Part shown: positions 9,218 through 17,613 of the stretch, piece after piece
Numbering within the stretch: the stretch's first letter is position 1
How the letters are laid out: each line of letters opens with the position of its first letter
Assembly (NCBI RefSeq): GCF_000687835.1
Contig: NZ_JHYB01000006.1
Location: 1 to 64,000, forward strand
DNA from: Haploplasma modicum ATCC 29102
Lineage (GTDB): Bacteria > Bacillota_I > Bacilli_A > Acholeplasmatales > Acholeplasmataceae
Direction: 5' to 3'
DNA: 64,000 nt
Notes under the pieces: generated by a model
Told to the model about the DNA's origin: nothing
The model's input: the letters and a program-made list of their open reading frames with translations, nothing else
The model's database searches: none
Position numbers and translations under genes: made by a program

Positions 9218-9727
9218 TTATTCTTCTTTGTTTTTATCTTGATAATGTATTAAAAATTTCTCTGCGATTAAACCAATTACTATTCCTGTTATAACTCCCA
9301 GTGGAATCATAATATATAAATACATTGCAATCTCAGATGTTCCTAAAACAAATATACCGATAATTATTTGACCAATTTGATGTGAGATAGATCCAATTAA
9401 ACTTACAAGGATTGTCCCAAATTTAAGTTTCTTAAGTAGGCTCATTACAGTCGTTGATAAAACTGATCCTGCAAATCCCATCCAAAAGGTTGGTCCAATA
9501 ACTCCTGATAATATCGCAACTAGAAAAACTCTTGTAAGACTAACTATATATGCTTCCTTGTATGAAAACATATATAAAACTACTAATACTACTAGATTTG
9601 CAAGTCCAAGCTTTGCACCTGGAACAACCACTAACTCTAACCTTGATTCAATAAGTCCTAACACAATTGCAAGGGCAGTTAGATTGGCAAGCATAATCAT
9701 TTTTTTTGTTTTTTTAGATGATGTCAT
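9218..9727 (-). CDS. Gx transporter family membrane protein (HepS1/EetB-like)
   Basis: Integral membrane protein of about 169 residues with five or six helices. LGLIESRLELVVVPGAKLGLANLV near the N-terminus is the signature of the Gx transporter family, often named heptaprenyl diphosphate synthase component I. Members (EetB in Listeria-type loci) sit in flavin-based extracellular electron transfer clusters next to a NusG domain II protein, exactly as here; their transported substrate is not established. The ATG at 9727 gives a 14-base overlap with the upstream gene; an upstream frame to 9757 is open but would lie deeper in that gene. Last gene of the Rnf cluster; no terminator is seen before the rpmE promoter. 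Confidence 0.78.
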   Translation of the reverse strand: MTSSKKTKKMIMLANLTALAIVLGLIESRLELVVVPGAKLGLANLVVLVVLYMFSYKEAYIVSLTRVFLVAILSGVIGPTFWMGFAGSVLSTTVMSLLKKLKFGTILVSLIGSISHQIGQIIIGIFVLGTSEIAMYLYIMIPLGVITGIVIGLIAEKFLIHYQDKNKEE

Positions 9728-10163
9728 CGTAATTTGTTCCTGAAGAGATAAAGACAATTATTACATTATTAGGAATACATGATATTGGTTTACCATTTGA
9801 TACTCCTTGTTTTAGACATGTGTTGTTTGGACTTTCTTCTTCAATAACTTGCATTGTTCTATCTTCTAAATTATATTTAATTACTATTTCTTGTCTAATT
9901 CCATCTATTTTATAATCACCTAAAATAGTTATTGTATTATTAGTACTATCATGTTTAGGATATCCTACAGAATTATTTTCTTGATCCATTAGATTTACTT
10001 TCTTATTTTCAAAATCTACATCAGCAACTATAGTATCACGATACTTAATAATTGAATTAGTAAATGTAGTTTTTTTGTAGGCATTTGAAATCATGAAATA
10101 CCCTATTATAGTGATCAATACAATAACAATTATTATTATTAAATCTCGATATTTAGTTTTCAT
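9714..10163 (-). CDS. NusG domain II-containing membrane-anchored protein (EetA-like)
   Basis: 149 residues: an N-terminal membrane anchor (about residues 8-27) followed by an outward-facing NusG domain II fold. The family signature is visible near the C-terminus as SPNNTCLKQG ... ISCIPNNVIIVF, including its two cysteines. Proteins of this family are found beside Gx transporters, ApbE and Rnf genes, and one is named EetA in extracellular electron transfer loci. No enzymatic role is known. It is unrelated in function to the transcription factor NusG. It lies 13 bases downstream of apbE and overlaps the Gx transporter gene, so the three are surely co-transcribed. Confidence 0.75.
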   Translation of the reverse strand: MKTKYRDLIIIIVIVLITIIGYFMISNAYKKTTFTNSIIKYRDTIVADVDFENKKVNLMDQENNSVGYPKHDSTNNTITILGDYKIDGIRQEIVIKYNLEDRTMQVIEEESPNNTCLKQGVSNGKPISCIPNNVIIVFISSGTNYDDII

Positions 10164-10176
10164 GACTTCATCACCT

Positions 10177-11400
10177 CTATTCTTCGCTATCTTCTTTATT
10201 TGATAGTTTAGATTTATTATTTTTTGAAATATAGTATATTCCTACACCAAATACAATTATAACACCACTAATAATTAACCAATCAAAGATTGATGCTTTA
10301 ATGATGTTAGTTGAACCATCAGAATTTACAAACTCATTTTCTTTTAAATTATTGATTATTTTTTTATCTGATTTTATAATTATATACTCTGTTAATTTGT
10401 TTTGCTTGCCCCAAGCTTCTAATTTCTTTTTATCCATTGAAAATATTGCTGTACTTAGTGCATCACCAAGTGCTGCACTATCAGTTACAATAATTGCAAT
10501 TCTATTATCAATTTCAGGCATTCTTGTAATAGGAGATATTATATGATGGTATAATCTGCCAAAAAATTCTTTATTTTGTTCAGTATCACCACTAGTTGTA
10601 ACAGTCTTATTAGCAACATTAATATAGCCATAAATACCACCAAATGGATTAGAAACACCAACTTTAGTATACCCTTTATCATTATTTAAGTTATAACCAT
10701 ATTTTAGTGAACTTGCACTACCTTTAATTTTATAACTAACAAGTCCTTCTTCTTTAAAATAATTTTCAACTTCATCAAGTGCATAACCTTTGGCGATTCC
10801 ACCAAGATCGATTTTTACACCTTCTTTAATTAACACATAATATTTATTATTTTCTTTTGTAAGAACTATTCCATTATCAATAATTGGTATATTCTTAATT
10901 TCTTCAACAATTTTATTAAACTGCTCTTCGGTATAATTATTATTAGCAAGTGGATCTATTAGATCTTTCCACTTATCAATAATTTTACCAATTGAAATAT
11001 TAAAATATCCTTCAGTTAATACTTGTACTTCTAGTGAAAACTCTAAAATATCATATAAAACTTTATCAATTTCAATTTTTTTGTTAATGTTATTATTGAT
11101 ATAATAAACATTTTTAATTGGCTCACCTAAAACATCATAGCCTTCAAAATTATCTGTTAGTATACTAATATTTGTAATAATTTCTTCAGAACGTTTTAAT
11201 TGTTCTAAGTAGTTATTAGCTTTTGGATCATTAACGTCAATTTCAACCGAAAAATCTGTATCCATTGCTGAAATGTATTTTCTATGATATTCATTTGGTT
11301 TAACTTCACTGTTTGCCAAAACTTTATTGTTATTTAGTGTTTGTACTGTAAATAATCCAACGAAAATCATTAGACAAACACTAATTACTTTTTTTAACAC
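10177..11400 (-). CDS. apbE: FAD:protein FMN transferase ApbE, membrane-anchored at both ends
   Basis: Attaches FMN covalently to threonines of RnfG/RnfD-type proteins outside the membrane. The N-terminal signal/anchor (residues 4-22) is followed by the catalytic domain with DLGGIAKGYALDEV, TTSGDTEQ, HHIISP and TDSAALGDALSTAIFSM. The usual HIxDPxTG motif reads HIISPITRMP, so the Asp and the terminal Gly are altered. An added C-terminal membrane helix (about 373-395) and a short basic/acidic tail make it longer (407 residues) than ordinary ApbE. The start is GTG at 11400, right after the rnfA stop. Its position after five to six flavin-bearing Rnf genes names its substrates. Confidence 0.9.
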   Translation of the reverse strand: MLKKVISVCLMIFVGLFTVQTLNNNKVLANSEVKPNEYHRKYISAMDTDFSVEIDVNDPKANNYLEQLKRSEEIITNISILTDNFEGYDVLGEPIKNVYYINNNINKKIEIDKVLYDILEFSLEVQVLTEGYFNISIGKIIDKWKDLIDPLANNNYTEEQFNKIVEEIKNIPIIDNGIVLTKENNKYYVLIKEGVKIDLGGIAKGYALDEVENYFKEEGLVSYKIKGSASSLKYGYNLNNDKGYTKVGVSNPFGGIYGYINVANKTVTTSGDTEQNKEFFGRLYHHIISPITRMPEIDNRIAIIVTDSAALGDALSTAIFSMDKKKLEAWGKQNKLTEYIIIKSDKKIINNLKENEFVNSDGSTNIIKASIFDWLIISGVIIVFGVGIYYISKNNKSKLSNKEDSEE

Positions 11401-11964
11401 TTATAAAATACCTGCTAATCCCATGAAAATCATAGCAATTAGCCCTGTTGTTATAAGTAAAATTGGAAAACCTCTAAATGATTTAGGGATTCCTGGTAAA
11501 TCTAATTTTGGTTTTATAGTATAAAGTAATAACATCATTAACATAAACCCTATCATATAACCAACTACTTCAACAAGTGCGCCTACATATGTTTCTGATT
11601 GTAAGATTAATAATAAAATAGTAACTACTAAAGCATCTTCTAAAATAAATGTTTCAAGAATATTTGTTCTACCTTCTTCAAACTGAATTTTATCGACTAC
11701 TTTATTACTTAGAACAACAACATTTTGTAAAACTAATACAATTAAGATTGGAATTAAAAATGAGAATGTTGTTCCCACAAATAAATATTTATTAAGTGGG
11801 TATACAATAAGTGCTGATACAAAAGTAAAGATTGCTAATTTAGTACTATTGATCATTAATGATTTTAATTTAGTCTTTTTACTAATCGTTGGAAAACCTT
11901 CTAATTTATAAAACATAATATTTGAAATAAAGATTGCTGCAAATAATATTTCTAGATATTTCAT
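11401..11964 (-). CDS. rnfA: RnfA-like membrane subunit lacking all cysteines
   Basis: 187-residue integral membrane protein. The C-terminal half (PGIPKSFRGFPILLITTGLI followed by AMIFMGLAGIL) matches RnfA/NqrE very well, and the N-terminus begins KYLEILFAAIFISNIMFYK as expected. In known complexes RnfA and RnfE each contribute cysteines from two half-helices (LGLCP and TTNCAV regions) to a shared intramembrane [2Fe-2S]. Here the first region reads KLEGFPTISKK and the second ILEDALVVTILL, and there is no cysteine in the whole protein. It overlaps rnfE by four bases (ATGA). Identity is secure from sequence and context, but the electron-transfer role is in doubt. Confidence 0.85.
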   Translation of the reverse strand: MKYLEILFAAIFISNIMFYKLEGFPTISKKTKLKSLMINSTKLAIFTFVSALIVYPLNKYLFVGTTFSFLIPILIVLVLQNVVVLSNKVVDKIQFEEGRTNILETFILEDALVVTILLLILQSETYVGALVEVVGYMIGFMLMMLLLYTIKPKLDLPGIPKSFRGFPILLITTGLIAMIFMGLAGIL

Positions 11965-12593
11965 ATTCTTGCTCCTCTCTTATTGAAAATTGCTACAATA
12001 AATCCTAATAATATTATAGCACCTAAAGGATTTGAGAATACTGTCATTGCATAATCCTTAAATAGGTTAAGCTGGAATTTAATGTTAGTATAGTTACCGA
12101 AAGTGATCATTCCTGTACTTAATAATTCTCTAAAGAACCCAATTACAATCATAATTACCATTAATCCTAAAAATGACTGTAATGAATTTAACACACTATA
12201 TCCAATATTACGTTTTTCATTGTCTGCAATTAACATATATGGTAATGCACTAATAGATAGAATAATTATATAAAGATTATAATCTTTACTAAAATTTATG
12301 AAAAATGCATTAGACAGTAAACTAACTAAAACTGCAGTACTGATAAAGATAAATGGTACTACAATTGGAATTAATTCTTCTCTTACAGTTTTATAGATTA
12401 ATTTACCCAAAAATGTTACTAAAATTAAATAAATAAATGAAAACAATAAATAAACCAATGTTGATTCAAGTGTTTTAGTAACAAAGATTGCTGGAAGTAG
12501 AGAATAAATAAGTAATGATACAGATTTTTTGTTTACTTCATGTGGATGAAAAATGTTTAATAAATTTTGATCTTTTACGCTCATTGGTGTCAT
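11961..12593 (-). CDS. rnfE: RnfE-like membrane subunit lacking all cysteines
   Basis: 210-residue membrane protein. GFFRELLSTGMITFG corresponds to the GSLREIIGNGTLF region of RnfE, and NPLGAIILLGFIVAIFNKRG to its C-terminus. The conserved LGLCP and VTNCIVVGRAE elements that bind the [2Fe-2S] in the family are replaced by IYSLLPAIFVT and SALPYMLIADNEKRN, and no cysteine occurs anywhere. GGAGG precedes the ATG by eight bases. It sits between the multi-flavin RnfG-like gene and rnfA. RnfE/NqrD and RnfA/NqrE are paralogues; the order and C-terminus support the RnfE assignment. Confidence 0.83.
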   Translation of the reverse strand: MTPMSVKDQNLLNIFHPHEVNKKSVSLLIYSLLPAIFVTKTLESTLVYLLFSFIYLILVTFLGKLIYKTVREELIPIVVPFIFISTAVLVSLLSNAFFINFSKDYNLYIIILSISALPYMLIADNEKRNIGYSVLNSLQSFLGLMVIMIVIGFFRELLSTGMITFGNYTNIKFQLNLFKDYAMTVFSNPLGAIILLGFIVAIFNKRGARI

Positions 12594-12594
12594 C

Positions 12595-14331
12595 TTATTT
12601 ACCTCCTAATAGATTTGCAAGTTCTGTTAATAATTTAACAATTGCGTTTTTTGAATTTGTAGCACCCGTAATATCTGAATTATATTCTAAAATATTATCA
12701 ACCACTACTTTGTTTTTAACTAGGCTATCTAAAAACTCAATAGATTTACCCTTGAAACTTCCTTCTGTATGATTGTATTCATAGATAACATAACCAATTA
12801 TTTCACGGTTATTATTTAGCATGAATTCAAAGTCAATTACTCCAGTATTTTGACCAAGGTAGATTGCTTTTATTGCTGCTCTTGATGTTGTACCTACTAC
12901 TTCACCGTTAATTAATACATTTTGATTTCTTGATACATATTCATTTTTTAGTGCTGTTTCTTCTAAAGTTACTTCAGCACCATAAATTACTTCATAAATA
13001 TCTTTTTCATTTAAAACAACAAAATCATTCAAGTTTTTAAACATTAACTTAATTGCACTTTGAGTATTTGTTGCACCTGTATTATCAGTTGAGTAAAGTG
13101 ATGCTTCTTCTATGCTTAACTTTTGTTCAACAATTTCATCTAAGAATTTTAAAGAAATTTCATAAAGATTTGTTTGTCCAAGTGCTAAAGTGTGTTTATA
13201 TTCAACTTCTTCATAACCGATTATTTTATTATCTAAGTCTAAAATAATATTGAATGTAATATGGCCACTTCTTCCATTAAAATATTCAGCTTCTTGACTT
13301 ACTAAATAAGAATAACCAACATGATTATTATCAATATGTAATTCATTAAAAGCAAGAACTTCATCAGTTTGAATAATTGGCATTCTTTCAAAACCAACAT
13401 TTTTAGATTTAAAGATTACTTCATAAATACTTACATAGTTATTACTAATAAATTGATTTAAGTCTTCAAACATTGCTCTAATTGCAGCTTGTGAACCTGT
13501 TGCTCCAGTAATATCTGTTTCATGGTCTTTTACTTTATTAATATTTAAACCAAGTTTTGTTATTTCATCTAAAAACTTAATTGATGCTTCCATATACTGT
13601 CCTTGTCCATGACCGTATTCAATTACTTCATAGCCTAAGATTTCATTTTCTAAGTTTAAGACAACATTTAATTTAATTGCTCTTCCTGTATCATCAACTG
13701 AGTTAATAACAAATGATCTTGCGACTTTATTACCTTTTACAAAAACATTCTTTTGTTCTAAAACGGTTTCTGTTTTTTTAAACTTATAATTAGCAACTGA
13801 GAAATTTTTACCAAATAGTATTTCATAAATTGATTTTTCTTCAATAAATCCACCAGCAATACCAACATCTTTTAATAACTCGTCAATTGTTCCAAGTGTT
13901 ATTGAAACAGTTGGTTTAGCAATATCACTATTTCCTGGATTTTTAATTTCAGATCCCTTAAGCGCATTAACATAATTATTTACTTCACTAGGATGATTCT
14001 TTCCTGGAAATTGTTGGTCAATATTTGAAGCAATTCCAATAATTTTTCCTTCTTTATTTAAAACTACATCTAATTTAATGTTACCGTATGTATTATCTTT
14101 TTCTGCTTTATATAACAATCCAATCTCTTTTTTTCCATTTAAAACTTTACTTACTTCAGTAATTGTTTTTGGGAGATTTTTTATTTCAACAGTTTCAAAT
14201 TTAACTTTTTGTCCAAGTGATTTTTCTATTTTTGAAGTTGGGATAATGAAAAGGTAAGATAATAACACTAAACTTGATACTAATAATAAAATAAGTGTAT
14301 TAACTAGTAAAAATAAATTTTCTTTTTTCAT
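12595..14331 (-). CDS. Multi-FMN RnfG-like protein with three flavinylation sites
   Basis: 578 residues, far longer than ordinary RnfG (about 200). An N-terminal membrane anchor is followed by four repeated FMN_bind-like units. The last three each end with a flavinylation motif of the form DxTGAT: DITGATGS (Thr about 278), DNTGATNT (Thr about 421) and DITGATNS (Thr about 558). The first unit ends with AKPTVSITLG and lacks the motif. Each active unit also carries a preceding EY(G/K/N)H segment and an FLDE/FLDS helix. The start at 14331 has AGGTGGTGAG upstream; an open GTG at 14343 overlaps rnfG. It probably arose by duplication of the neighbouring rnfG. Multi-flavin proteins of this kind act as electron wires outside the membrane in extracellular electron transfer systems. 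Confidence 0.88.
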   Translation of the reverse strand: MKKENLFLLVNTLILLLVSSLVLLSYLFIIPTSKIEKSLGQKVKFETVEIKNLPKTITEVSKVLNGKKEIGLLYKAEKDNTYGNIKLDVVLNKEGKIIGIASNIDQQFPGKNHPSEVNNYVNALKGSEIKNPGNSDIAKPTVSITLGTIDELLKDVGIAGGFIEEKSIYEILFGKNFSVANYKFKKTETVLEQKNVFVKGNKVARSFVINSVDDTGRAIKLNVVLNLENEILGYEVIEYGHGQGQYMEASIKFLDEITKLGLNINKVKDHETDITGATGSQAAIRAMFEDLNQFISNNYVSIYEVIFKSKNVGFERMPIIQTDEVLAFNELHIDNNHVGYSYLVSQEAEYFNGRSGHITFNIILDLDNKIIGYEEVEYKHTLALGQTNLYEISLKFLDEIVEQKLSIEEASLYSTDNTGATNTQSAIKLMFKNLNDFVVLNEKDIYEVIYGAEVTLEETALKNEYVSRNQNVLINGEVVGTTSRAAIKAIYLGQNTGVIDFEFMLNNNREIIGYVIYEYNHTEGSFKGKSIEFLDSLVKNKVVVDNILEYNSDITGATNSKNAIVKLLTELANLLGGK

Positions 14332-14332
14332 C

Positions 14333-15259
14333 TTACTCACCACCTAATAAAAACTTTGAAAGTTCAACTAACATTTCTTTAACTAACGTTCTACTATTTG
14401 TAGCACCTGTAACATCAGATACAAATGTTTCAACTTCACCAATTTTTACTTTAGCATCTGCTAGTTCATCAAGATAAGCAAATACTTTTTTCTTAAATCC
14501 GCCGCCTGTATGTTTATATTCTAATTCTTCAGCACCTAAAATTGTATAATCAGGGCTTAAAATAATATTTAAGTCAATTGATGCTTTTTCTTGTTCATTA
14601 TAAATACCTAATCCTGTTATATGGTAAACGTGAGCTAAAACTTCACCATTAACTAAAATTGTTTTATAACCTTTAATATTTTCCAAGTCTGGTTTTGTTT
14701 GTGCTTCTTCTGTATAATCTTTACCAAATAATTCTTCATAGATTGTTAATTTTTCTTCAACAATACCATGTGATTTACTAATTTCTTCTAAGATAGCATT
14801 TGCTGTATCTAATGAGAAACTAACTGTTGGTGCTGTAATTTCAGTTGTTGGTTGATTAATTTTTGAACCCTTATAACCTTCAACATATGTTTTAGTTAAA
14901 CTTGCACCAATTGATTGGTTTACATTAGCACTTATTCCAAGAATTGTTCCATCTTCTAATACTGCAACAATCATTTGAATATCACCATAACCGTTAGCAA
15001 GTGTTGCGTCATATAATGAAACTGTTTTGTTATCACTATTTTTAGCTTGTAATTTTTCTGTAATAATTCCCTTTTCAAACTCTGTTTCTTCTAAATCTTT
15101 TAGTTCACTGACTAAACCACTATATTTTTTTAGTCGTTCTTTTGAAATGTTGTTATTTTTAACTGGTGTCAATAAGAAGCTTGCGCCAATTAAAACACCT
15201 AAAGTAACGAAAAGATAAATTAAAATGACTAAGTATTTATTTACTGTATCTTTTTTCAT
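14333..15259 (-). CDS. rnfG: RnfG electron transport subunit with one FMN site
   Basis: 308 residues: one N-terminal membrane helix (about 9-30) and two FMN_bind-like units facing outward. The second unit ends with SDVTGATNS, with Thr287 the predicted FMN attachment site made by ApbE. The first unit ends with TAPTVSFSLD and lacks it, in the same way as the first unit of the next gene. Normal RnfG has a single unit, so the protein is extended. One base separates it from rnfD and from the multi-FMN gene, showing one operon. Confidence 0.9.
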   Translation of the reverse strand: MKKDTVNKYLVILIYLFVTLGVLIGASFLLTPVKNNNISKERLKKYSGLVSELKDLEETEFEKGIITEKLQAKNSDNKTVSLYDATLANGYGDIQMIVAVLEDGTILGISANVNQSIGASLTKTYVEGYKGSKINQPTTEITAPTVSFSLDTANAILEEISKSHGIVEEKLTIYEELFGKDYTEEAQTKPDLENIKGYKTILVNGEVLAHVYHITGLGIYNEQEKASIDLNIILSPDYTILGAEELEYKHTGGGFKKKVFAYLDELADAKVKIGEVETFVSDVTGATNSRTLVKEMLVELSKFLLGGE

Positions 15260-15260
15260 T

Positions 15261-16304
15261 TTAAAAACCCCCTACTCCAGCAAACACAATTAATGCGATT
15301 ACTAAAATAACTGATGCATAACCAATAATGAATTTCTTTGTATATAAACTGTTTGTCCATTTTTTGTAATCAATTAAAGCAACAAATGTATTTGCAACTA
15401 ATAATGCAAAAACCATACCTTCTGGAAGTGACCCAAATAATCTAATTATTGCTACTAGTGCACCAATTATTAAACTAAAAATTAATCTACCTGGACCAGT
15501 ATATGGTGATGTAACTGGATCAGTTGCCATAAATACTATCCCAAATAAGAAACCACCTGATAAAATGTGGAATAATACATATTTAATTACTGAATTAAAA
15601 TCTAATCCAATTCCAATTCCAGCTACTAACATAAATAAACTAAATGTTAGAAGACTAGTTACAATAACACGGTAATCAGCAGATCTTCTAGCTATTAAGT
15701 AAATAGCACCAATAATTATTGCAAGTTTGTTAATTTCACCCATTGAACCTGGAACTAAACCAAATAGTAAATCGGTAATTGAATAATAGTTTAGGACATC
15801 TGGAAATGAACTACCTAGTGCTGTTGCTCCTGCAATAGCATCTATTCCTTCATAGGAGAAGAAACTTGCAAAGCTTAATGCTACAAAAACTCTACCTAAA
15901 CCAGCTGGGTTAAAAATATTTCTACCTAAACCACCAAAAATCATTTTACCAATTAAAATTGCAAAGCTTATTCCCACTACAACAACTACTAAGCTAATTG
16001 TGCTTGGTAATGTTAAGACAAAAATAAGTGCAGTAATTATTGGTGGAACAATATTATTTACTGTATATTTATATTTAAAACGTTCTTTCCATGTTTCAGT
16101 TTCATCTTTCATTAATCCAAATGCTAATGCTTCAAGTAATACTGCAACTACACTCGCAACTACTGCTCTTAAAGCAAAATCAAATTTATATTGAAATAAA
16201 GCAAATGCCATAACTGGTAGTAATGCAATTAAAACGTCAACCATCATTCTTTTTGTACTTGTGTCTTTTCTAACATAAGGACTTTTTTTAGCTATTGCTT
16301 GCAT
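15261..16304 (-). CDS. rnfD: RnfD electron transport membrane subunit
   Basis: 347 residues with about nine membrane helices. The N-terminus SPYVRKDTSTKRMMVDVLIA is typical of RnfD/NqrB. The FMN-threonine motif is present as DAIAGATALG (Thr161), and KMIFGGLGRNIFNPAGLGRV and ATDPVTSPYTGPGR are well conserved. In known complexes it carries covalent FMN and interacts with RnfG and RnfA/E. It follows rnfC by one base. Nothing in it is degraded, in contrast to RnfA and RnfE. Confidence 0.95.
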   Translation of the reverse strand: MQAIAKKSPYVRKDTSTKRMMVDVLIALLPVMAFALFQYKFDFALRAVVASVVAVLLEALAFGLMKDETETWKERFKYKYTVNNIVPPIITALIFVLTLPSTISLVVVVVGISFAILIGKMIFGGLGRNIFNPAGLGRVFVALSFASFFSYEGIDAIAGATALGSSFPDVLNYYSITDLLFGLVPGSMGEINKLAIIIGAIYLIARRSADYRVIVTSLLTFSLFMLVAGIGIGLDFNSVIKYVLFHILSGGFLFGIVFMATDPVTSPYTGPGRLIFSLIIGALVAIIRLFGSLPEGMVFALLVANTFVALIDYKKWTNSLYTKKFIIGYASVILVIALIVFAGVGGF

Positions 16305-16305
16305 T

Positions 16306-17613
16306 TTAATTTCCTACCTCTCTTAAAAATTGTTTTGATTTTCTCATATATTCTGTTAAATGAATCTTTGAAGGACATACAAATGAACATAGCCCACATT
16401 CGATACATTTATTAACATTAAGCATTTCAAGACCATTAGCATCACCATTTTTTAGTGCATTCATAATTTGTACTGGTTGAATCTTAACCGGACATGAATA
16501 AACACAAGCAGCACAGTGGATACATGGCTCTTCAAAGTACTCTTCGTTATTTAATACAATCATTGATGTTGTTGTTTGAGTAATAATAACATCATCACTT
16601 ACAGTATTACCACCCATCATTGGTCCACCAAGAATTAAAACTTTTGGTATTTCAACATCCAAGTAACCACCTGCAAGTTCAACTAAATCACTGATCTTTG
16701 TTCCAACTCTTGCTCTAAAGTTAACATTTTTTATTCCATTACCACTTAAAGTAAAGAATCTTTCAAGTAATGGCATTCTAAATTTAATTGCTTTAAAGAT
16801 TGTTGCAAGAGTTGATACGTTTAAGATTAACACACCATGATTTGCTGTTAGTTGCCCTTGTGGTATTTTAACCCCAATTGCATTTTTAACTGTTTCTAAT
16901 TCCCATCCTGATGGATAGTGATTACCTACACCAACTACTTCAATGTTGTAGTCTGGGTATTCTTTTAAAGCAAATTCCATAACTTCTTTAATTTCTTTAT
17001 ACTTTTTCTTAATTGCAATTACACCACGTTTAGCACCCATAGCATTCATTGAATATATAAGTCCTTTAATTACCCAGTGTGGTTCATTCATCATAAGTTC
17101 AAAGTCACTAACTAAATATGGTTCACACTCAACACCGTTTGCAACAATTGTATCAATTTGTTTGTCAGTGCTAAATTTGATATATGTTGGAAAGGCACTA
17201 CCACCTAAACCTACTAATCCCATATCTTTTACAATTTCAATAAAATCTTTTTTTGTTAAGTTGTTAACTTCTTCATCTGATCTTTCATAAACGGATTCAT
17301 GCATTTCATACTTGTAATCATTTTTAACGATTACATAGTTAACTAATCTTCCTGCTTCATCATGTCTTTTTTCATGAGCAATAATTTTACCACTAACTGT
17401 CGCATGAATTGGTTGTTCAAAAAAAGCAGCCTTTCTAGTTCCAATAACTTCACCAACTTTTACTTCTTGACCATCAATCACACAAGTTTCACCTTGGGGA
17501 CATCTAGCTGTAGTAACTGGGTAGTATAGGTACTTTGCTTCCTTATGATAAATAATTGGTAGTTTTTTTAATTCTTTTTTACCATCAGGAATAATTTTTG
17601 TTTTCATTATCAT
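16306..17613 (-). CDS. rnfC: RnfC electron transport subunit (NADH/FMN, two [4Fe-4S])
   Basis: 435-residue peripheral cytoplasmic subunit that exchanges electrons with NAD(H) in known Rnf complexes. The nucleotide/FMN region carries GLGGSAFPTYIKF and ANGVECEPYL, a SLBB domain follows, and two [4Fe-4S] motifs close the protein: CIHCAACVYSCP (from residue 364) and CIECGLCSFVCP (from 403). There is no fused RnfB-like extension. GGAGGAAG precedes the ATG. It is 14 bases downstream of glyA and is the first gene of the cluster proper. Confidence 0.95.
   Translation of the reverse strand: MIMKTKIIPDGKKELKKLPIIYHKEAKYLYYPVTTARCPQGETCVIDGQEVKVGEVIGTRKAAFFEQPIHATVSGKIIAHEKRHDEAGRLVNYVIVKNDYKYEMHESVYERSDEEVNNLTKKDFIEIVKDMGLVGLGGSAFPTYIKFSTDKQIDTIVANGVECEPYLVSDFELMMNEPHWVIKGLIYSMNAMGAKRGVIAIKKKYKEIKEVMEFALKEYPDYNIEVVGVGNHYPSGWELETVKNAIGVKIPQGQLTANHGVLILNVSTLATIFKAIKFRMPLLERFFTLSGNGIKNVNFRARVGTKISDLVELAGGYLDVEIPKVLILGGPMMGGNTVSDDVIITQTTTSMIVLNNEEYFEEPCIHCAACVYSCPVKIQPVQIMNALKNGDANGLEMLNVNKCIECGLCSFVCPSKIHLTEYMRKSKQFLREVGN

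Follow-up and report, generated by a model that had tools for sequence, protein, structure and literature searches.

An RnfB-less rnf cluster of Haploplasma modicum that probably keeps the NADH arm of Rnf and leads to external covalent flavins

What kind of electron-transfer complex is encoded around an RnfG-like protein with three tandem flavin attachment motifs, when one of the subunits expected beside it is missing? Rnf is a membrane electron pump, which takes electrons from ferredoxin and pumps ions, and the question arises from a locus of Haploplasma modicum, a wall-less bacterium whose relative Acholeplasma laidlawii is a model mollicute. The stretch of DNA analysed (hereafter the window) comprises 64,000 nucleotides (positions 1 to 64,000 of NZ_JHYB01000006.1, from assembly GCF_000687835.1 of Haploplasma modicum ATCC 29102). 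We consider it probable that the cluster found there encodes an Rnf-derived half-complex, in which the ferredoxin-input/ion-pump arm has been lost and the NADH arm kept, with electrons passing to external covalent flavins. This reading builds on which genes are present, which ligands are lost and which sites are kept, and on folds, purifying selection and distribution, all read from sequence, and from these we infer the flavinylation, the direction of flow, the existence of an acceptor and the non-pumping state of RnfA and RnfE.

The RnfG-like protein (RnfG2, 12595..14343, minus strand) is 582 residues long when started at the GTG at 14343, or 578 when started at the ATG at 14331, and has a transmembrane helix (residues 7-33) and four FMN_bind units. 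The original prediction had placed three DxTGAT motifs at Thr 278, 421 and 558, and all three are there; in the 582-residue numbering, which is shifted by four, the predicted FMN sites are Thr282 (codon 13498-13500), Thr425 (13069-13071) and Thr562 (12658-12660), while in the degenerate unit 1 the motif is replaced by KPTVS at position 143, with the fold kept. At least one DxTGAT appeared by chance in 52 of 200,000 shuffles of the protein. The Pfam search recovered FMN_bind in two stretches (42.7 bits, against a cut-off of 22), and the AlphaFold model (mean pLDDT 84.4, with a single N-terminal helix at 7-33) is made of four repeats with the same helix and strand order, the motif-less unit 1 included, in agreement with the consecutive units and degenerate first unit that had been proposed. 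The last unit folded alone reached a pLDDT of 88.9 and a pTM of 0.84, the alignments behind these models being shallow (18 and 6 rows). Because a PDB sequence search with RnfG2 gave no match at E <= 1, fold comparison was used, and Foldseek found the last unit closest to RnfG of C. tetanomorphum (7zc6_G, TM 0.76 by query) and CbFMN4 domain 1 (8p2b, TM 0.80 by target), in both cases with a probability of 1.00 despite E-values that were 0.001 or higher for every match. Similarly, scans of genome and viral contigs with RnfG2 as single query found no relatives, and these were therefore sought via RnfD. Like multi-flavinylated proteins, RnfG2 has several FMN_bind domains in a single extracytosolic chain. 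The DxTGAT motif of RnfG1 and RnfG2 is one residue shorter than the consensus Dxx[S/T]GA[S/T] (PMC10339131).

The cluster runs on the minus strand in the order rnfC, rnfD, rnfG1, rnfG2, rnfE, rnfA, apbE, a NusG_II-like gene and a PF07456 gene. RnfC (16306..17613, 435 residues) corresponds to the NADH/FMN module with two [4Fe-4S] clusters (TIGR01945 at 325 bits, over a cut-off of 246, together with Complex1_51K and RnfC_N), and both its eight cluster cysteines and its GLGGSxFPTYIK NADH loop are conserved in the alignment. The membrane flavin subunit RnfD (15261..16304, 347 residues, PF03116 at 276 bits) bears the motif DAIAGAT, with FMN predicted at Thr161 (codon 15822-15824), and [AS]GAT is retained in the seven aligned rows (7/7) from RnfB-less genomes. 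RnfG1 (14333..15259, 308 residues, FMN_bind at 23.0 bits against a cut-off of 22) joins a degenerate unit (APTVS at 143) to a unit with DVTGAT (Thr287, codon 14399-14401), which brings the motif-bearing units of RnfG1 and RnfG2 to four altogether. The earlier count of attachment motifs (three in RnfG2, one in RnfG1 and the DAIAGAT of RnfD) was right, and five covalent flavins are predicted for the three proteins. The homologues of RnfE (11961..12593, 210 residues, PF02508 at 38.6 bits, matching 7zc6_E) and of RnfA (11401..11964, 187 residues, PF02508 at 37.1 bits, matching 9eri_A and 7zc6_A) contain no cysteine at all. They are followed by the flavin transferase ApbE (10177..11400, 407 residues, PF02424 at 144.7 bits), in which an N-terminal signal or transmembrane segment and a C-terminal transmembrane segment can be read and the GGN/GGG-type loop is GSAS, off the consensus; by a membrane-anchored protein resembling NusG domain II (9714..10163, PF07009 at 27.7 bits, just below the 29.6 cut-off), whose position after apbE is conserved across relatives; and by a Hpre_diP_synt_I-type membrane protein (9218..9757, PF07456 at 118 bits), the conserved last gene of the cluster. 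At one locus of a relative (L033:3639-5204) the NusG_II-like domain, a separate gene in the window, is fused to the C terminus of ApbE, which suggests that the two proteins may act together.

The unusual part of this locus is the complex around RnfG2, and not the repeats. Searches of the whole genome (99.75% complete) with TIGR01944 and PF04060 gave no match for RnfB, and rnfA directly abuts apbE, where RnfB-bearing relatives have an interval of about 580 bp with an RnfB of about 105 residues. The absence of PF04060 alone was not taken as loss of RnfB, given that a short variant (NCGACNKGSC, locus L159) was missed at threshold. This RnfB of about 105 residues has a single transmembrane helix and a single FeS domain, and lacks the usual two-[4Fe-4S] domain; it is the form of the order and also occurs in many genomes across the class, at loci such as L035:4142-4462 and L049:1840-2157, among many more.

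The losses extend to the membrane [2Fe-2S] cluster, for which RnfA and RnfE of the window have none of the four cysteines. In A. woodii the ligands are C25 and C113 of RnfA and C25 and C108 of RnfE, and mutating the ligand cysteines abolishes ferredoxin:NAD+ activity and autotrophic growth (PMC11889175). The four cysteines are absent from all 15 RnfB-less genomes examined (13 in three genera of the Acholeplasmataceae, 2 in a distant family, f10) and are kept in 83/83 RnfA/NqrE and 88/88 RnfE/NqrD comparison proteins (171 in total, from both Rnf and NQR). The vacated columns hold E, D or a gap and S, N or D in RnfA and mostly hydrophobic residues in RnfE, with no conserved substitute, and in the RnfB-less genomes the positions of RnfA E88 and of the RnfE GRAE motif also differ in most cases. 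Since RnfB is missing and all four [2Fe-2S] ligands are lost, this is not a normal Rnf. The original prediction of a flavin wire in place of a standard Rnf stands to that extent, but the reason that it gave, the repeats, does not, as RnfB-bearing relatives are also multi-unit; that the RnfG2 flavins work as a "wire" is something that we infer.

Among the RnfB-bearing relatives with several FMN_bind units, an arrangement of 2+2 is found in most Acholeplasmataceae. RnfG proteins of 1423-1434 residues (L056:3390-7694, L057:3885-8156 and L058:9462-13736) are encoded in Rnf operons where RnfB and the cysteines are retained, the one at L058 (1424 residues) having at least five FMN_bind stretches. 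We rejected the idea that repeated FMN units bring about, or are a marker of, the loss of the ferredoxin arm, both on account of these RnfB-bearing relatives (2+2 units, and RnfG of up to 1434 residues) and of f10, in which the arm is lost with single-unit G proteins. The repeats of RnfG2 alone are not new, because multi-flavin RnfG in Rnf clusters has already been published (Meheust et al. 2021, eLife, PMC8238504) and the number of units varies in relatives with a normal Rnf.

The order-level search found this type of RnfD in about 104 of 160 genomes, most of them with an rnfB of about 105 codons between rnfA and apbE. RnfB and the cysteines were lost together in 13/13 genomes of three genera, that of the window and two sister genera (g1-g3). 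The genomes taken as A. laidlawii PG-8 (G005, locus L175) and as A. palmae J233 (G009, L043) are RnfB-less, and the one taken as A. brassicae (G148, L067) keeps both RnfB and the cysteines. In f10, two loci (L156 and L157) encode RnfC, RnfD with a fused FMN_bind, RnfG, RnfE, RnfA, ApbE, NusG_II and PF07456, and no RnfB; their RnfA and RnfE have no ligand cysteines and are very divergent, their orthology being judged from gene order together with low HMM scores (for L156, 19 and 28 bits). In the RnfC tree f10 falls outside a group (support 100/99) that joins g1-g3 with RnfB-bearing families, and at least two independent losses of the ferredoxin arm are therefore likely, as judged from sequence; inside the Acholeplasmataceae, the trees are consistent with one or two losses.

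These losses have a counterpart in pyruvate:ferredoxin oxidoreductase (PFOR). None was found in the 13/13 RnfB-less genomes of g1-g3, with only borderline matches near 1e-3 in two of them (G001 and G003), and in the two genomes of f10 the scores stop at 164-168 bits (cut-off 911), without a full-length protein, which leaves all 15 RnfB-less genomes without a full-length PFOR. The enzyme is present in 87/89 RnfB-bearing genomes of the order (Fisher p ~2e-14, without correction for kinship). Where the ferredoxin arm is lost, a main source of reduced ferredoxin is thus lost as well, in a joint loss that may reflect no more than two or three events. A third family, f14, has minimal loci in small genomes that keep PFOR: RnfC with an RnfD-FMN_bind fusion (L161:6308-8973) or RnfC with RnfD (L162:7108-9352 and L163:5401-7781), without A, B, E or a separate G nearby. 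The first of these supports a free-standing C-D(-G) arm. At another locus (L160:7569-9301), only the second ligand cysteine (LNC) of RnfA is left, the neighbouring RnfD is shortened and no RnfE can be recognised; this locus is a possible intermediate in ligand loss.

FMN_bind occurs at only two loci of the genome, the cluster of the window and a second contig (C3). The latter has an NQR-like operon (L075:4208-9991), with NqrB-C-D-E-F and no NqrA, in which NqrD and NqrE have all four cysteines and NqrC is 847 residues long, with five FMN_bind-like units (TGAT, TGAT, TGVT, degenerate and TGVT). NqrC has one unit in most relatives, and forms of 669-675 residues are found at L068 and L072. At L062 (356-1501) an RnfC-like protein of 381 residues, with two [4Fe-4S] motifs, lies directly before NqrB-C-D-E, a place that is empty in other such loci. 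A genome-wide search for a fumarate-reductase-like terminal acceptor (PF00890) gave five matches, all of them short N-terminal stretches and none a protein of that kind.

In the half-complex that we favour, NADH would be oxidised by RnfC, whose sites are intact, through FMN and its two [4Fe-4S] clusters, and the electrons would cross the membrane via the flavins of RnfD, in a reversal of the last known Rnf steps. They would then reach the covalent FMN of RnfG1 and move on, outside the membrane, along the three that RnfG2 carries, before leaving to an external acceptor. The flavins would be attached by the ApbE encoded next door, and RnfA and RnfE would remain as cluster-less membrane subunits, probably as a scaffold. 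Outward flow would be the simplest direction, as proposed for the two-subunit NQR/RNF-like systems. A wider proposal, which we regard as evenly balanced, is that of a recurrent "half-Rnf" in two or more lineages of the class (A. laidlawii belongs to one of them), in which the ferredoxin and [2Fe-2S] arm was lost jointly where PFOR is absent, leaving a non-pumping NADH dehydrogenase that would deliver to external covalent flavins. A. laidlawii has a long-known membrane NADH oxidase activity, for which such a complex may account.

The same genes could be read in other ways, one of which is an ordinary Rnf with a multi-flavin RnfG, in which an unrecognised protein replaces RnfB, other residues hold the RnfA/RnfE cluster, and ferredoxin:NAD+ reduction and pumping continue. 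The retained RnfC, RnfD, RnfG and gene order and the already short RnfB of the relatives (about 105 residues) would suit it, but we find it unlikely: 15/15 genomes have lost the four cysteines and show nothing conserved in their place, the E88 and GRAE columns are mostly changed, and the operon leaves no space for rnfB in a genome without any PF04060 match or PFOR. Alternatively, the cluster could be a decaying remnant with no role in electron transfer, as the loss of cofactor ligands and of a subunit and the fast divergence of RnfA, RnfE and RnfG in the window's genus might suggest (the dN/dS of RnfA/E is 0.45-0.48 within that genus, which indicates fast evolution). We rejected this as very improbable, given that the RnfE and RnfA reading frames are full-length in 13/13 genomes and that dN/dS is about 0.1 for RnfA/E (A. 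laidlawii against its close relative G006) and 0.18-0.24 for RnfC/D; moreover, catalytic and cluster residues are conserved, and RnfG2 is expanded rather than eroded.

Two further readings keep an active complex and change its connections. One joins it with the NQR-like complex of C3 in a single circuit, linked via the external flavin domains, in which C3 gives the [2Fe-2S] arm; NqrF, the four-cysteine NqrD and NqrE and the five-unit NqrC would complement what the window lacks. It was rejected as highly unlikely on the evidence of three RnfB-less genomes, G015 (same genus, a complete single contig), G009 (A. palmae) and G010, which have one RnfD-type gene and no second complex; because they lack a second RnfD-type gene, the C3 locus is not a required partner. 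The other lets the half-complex run inward, from an external reductant through the flavin domains to RnfC, which would reduce NAD+. RnfD-to-RnfC is indeed the direction of the last forward steps of Rnf (PMC11889175), but -184 mV, the potential of one multi-flavin protein that has been characterised (PMC10339131), is too high for ready NAD+ reduction without energy input, and the cluster encodes no extracytosolic dehydrogenase, which makes inward flow improbable in our view.

The outward half-complex bears on how these organisms are annotated, since the literature counts Acholeplasma among the bearers of an Rnf complex (PMC5861303, PMC4221730). Applied to A. laidlawii and A. palmae, the Rnf label suggests ferredoxin:NAD+ reduction and ion pumping, both of which appear very unlikely from the sequences because the cysteines are lost and RnfB is missing; instead of the standard job of Rnf, the half-complex probably exports electrons. 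In addition, the RnfB-less cluster separates the two arms of Rnf naturally, in a culturable organism, and it bears on whether RnfC, RnfD and RnfG can work without the [2Fe-2S] arm, on whether RnfD alone still lets ions through and on the site of ion pumping in Rnf and NQR, for which RnfA/E and RnfD/NqrB have both been proposed (PMC12174285).

Compared with known systems, the cluster stands close in its genes to Rnf (RnfABCDGE of A. woodii, C. tetanomorphum and A. vinelandii), with homologues of RnfC, D, G, E and A in order, ApbE nearby and the RnfG fold. An RnfC with its NADH/FMN site and two [4Fe-4S] clusters, the RnfD flavin site and an RnfG with FMN_bind are all present; RnfB and the four RnfA/RnfE cysteines are not, and there are two RnfG proteins, one of them with four units. 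Na+-NQR has D, G, E and A homologues in common with it, but the operon of the window is without NqrF and NqrA, and the NQR-like locus of this genome is separate and keeps its cysteines. The multi-flavinylated RnfG for which a second electron exit to external acceptors was proposed (Meheust et al. 2021, PMC8238504) likewise bears several FMN_bind units, but in the window the RnfB/[2Fe-2S] branch is gone, and the type would not have been scored as Rnf in that survey, which required RnfB. SaFMN3 and CbFMN4, two multi-flavin proteins that have been purified with ApbE and whose single domains have been crystallised (Tong et al. 2023, PMC10339131), have tandem FMN_bind domains with one covalent FMN each, as is predicted for RnfG2, and the fourth unit of RnfG2 has domain 1 of CbFMN4 as one of its closest solved folds; RnfG2 differs in being membrane-anchored and encoded in an rnf operon, with longer units, one of them empty. 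Finally, the two-subunit NQR/RNF-like systems (Meheust 2021; Huang 2024, PMC10979944) would share with the window complex a single-arm, unidirectional path from NAD(P)H to an external flavin via an RnfD/NqrB-type subunit. They differ in fusing NqrB/RnfD to PF00175, whereas RnfD of the window matches PF03116 only: its NADH module is a separate RnfC instead of an NqrF-type domain fused to RnfD, and it retains RnfA and RnfE together with the RnfD flavin site.
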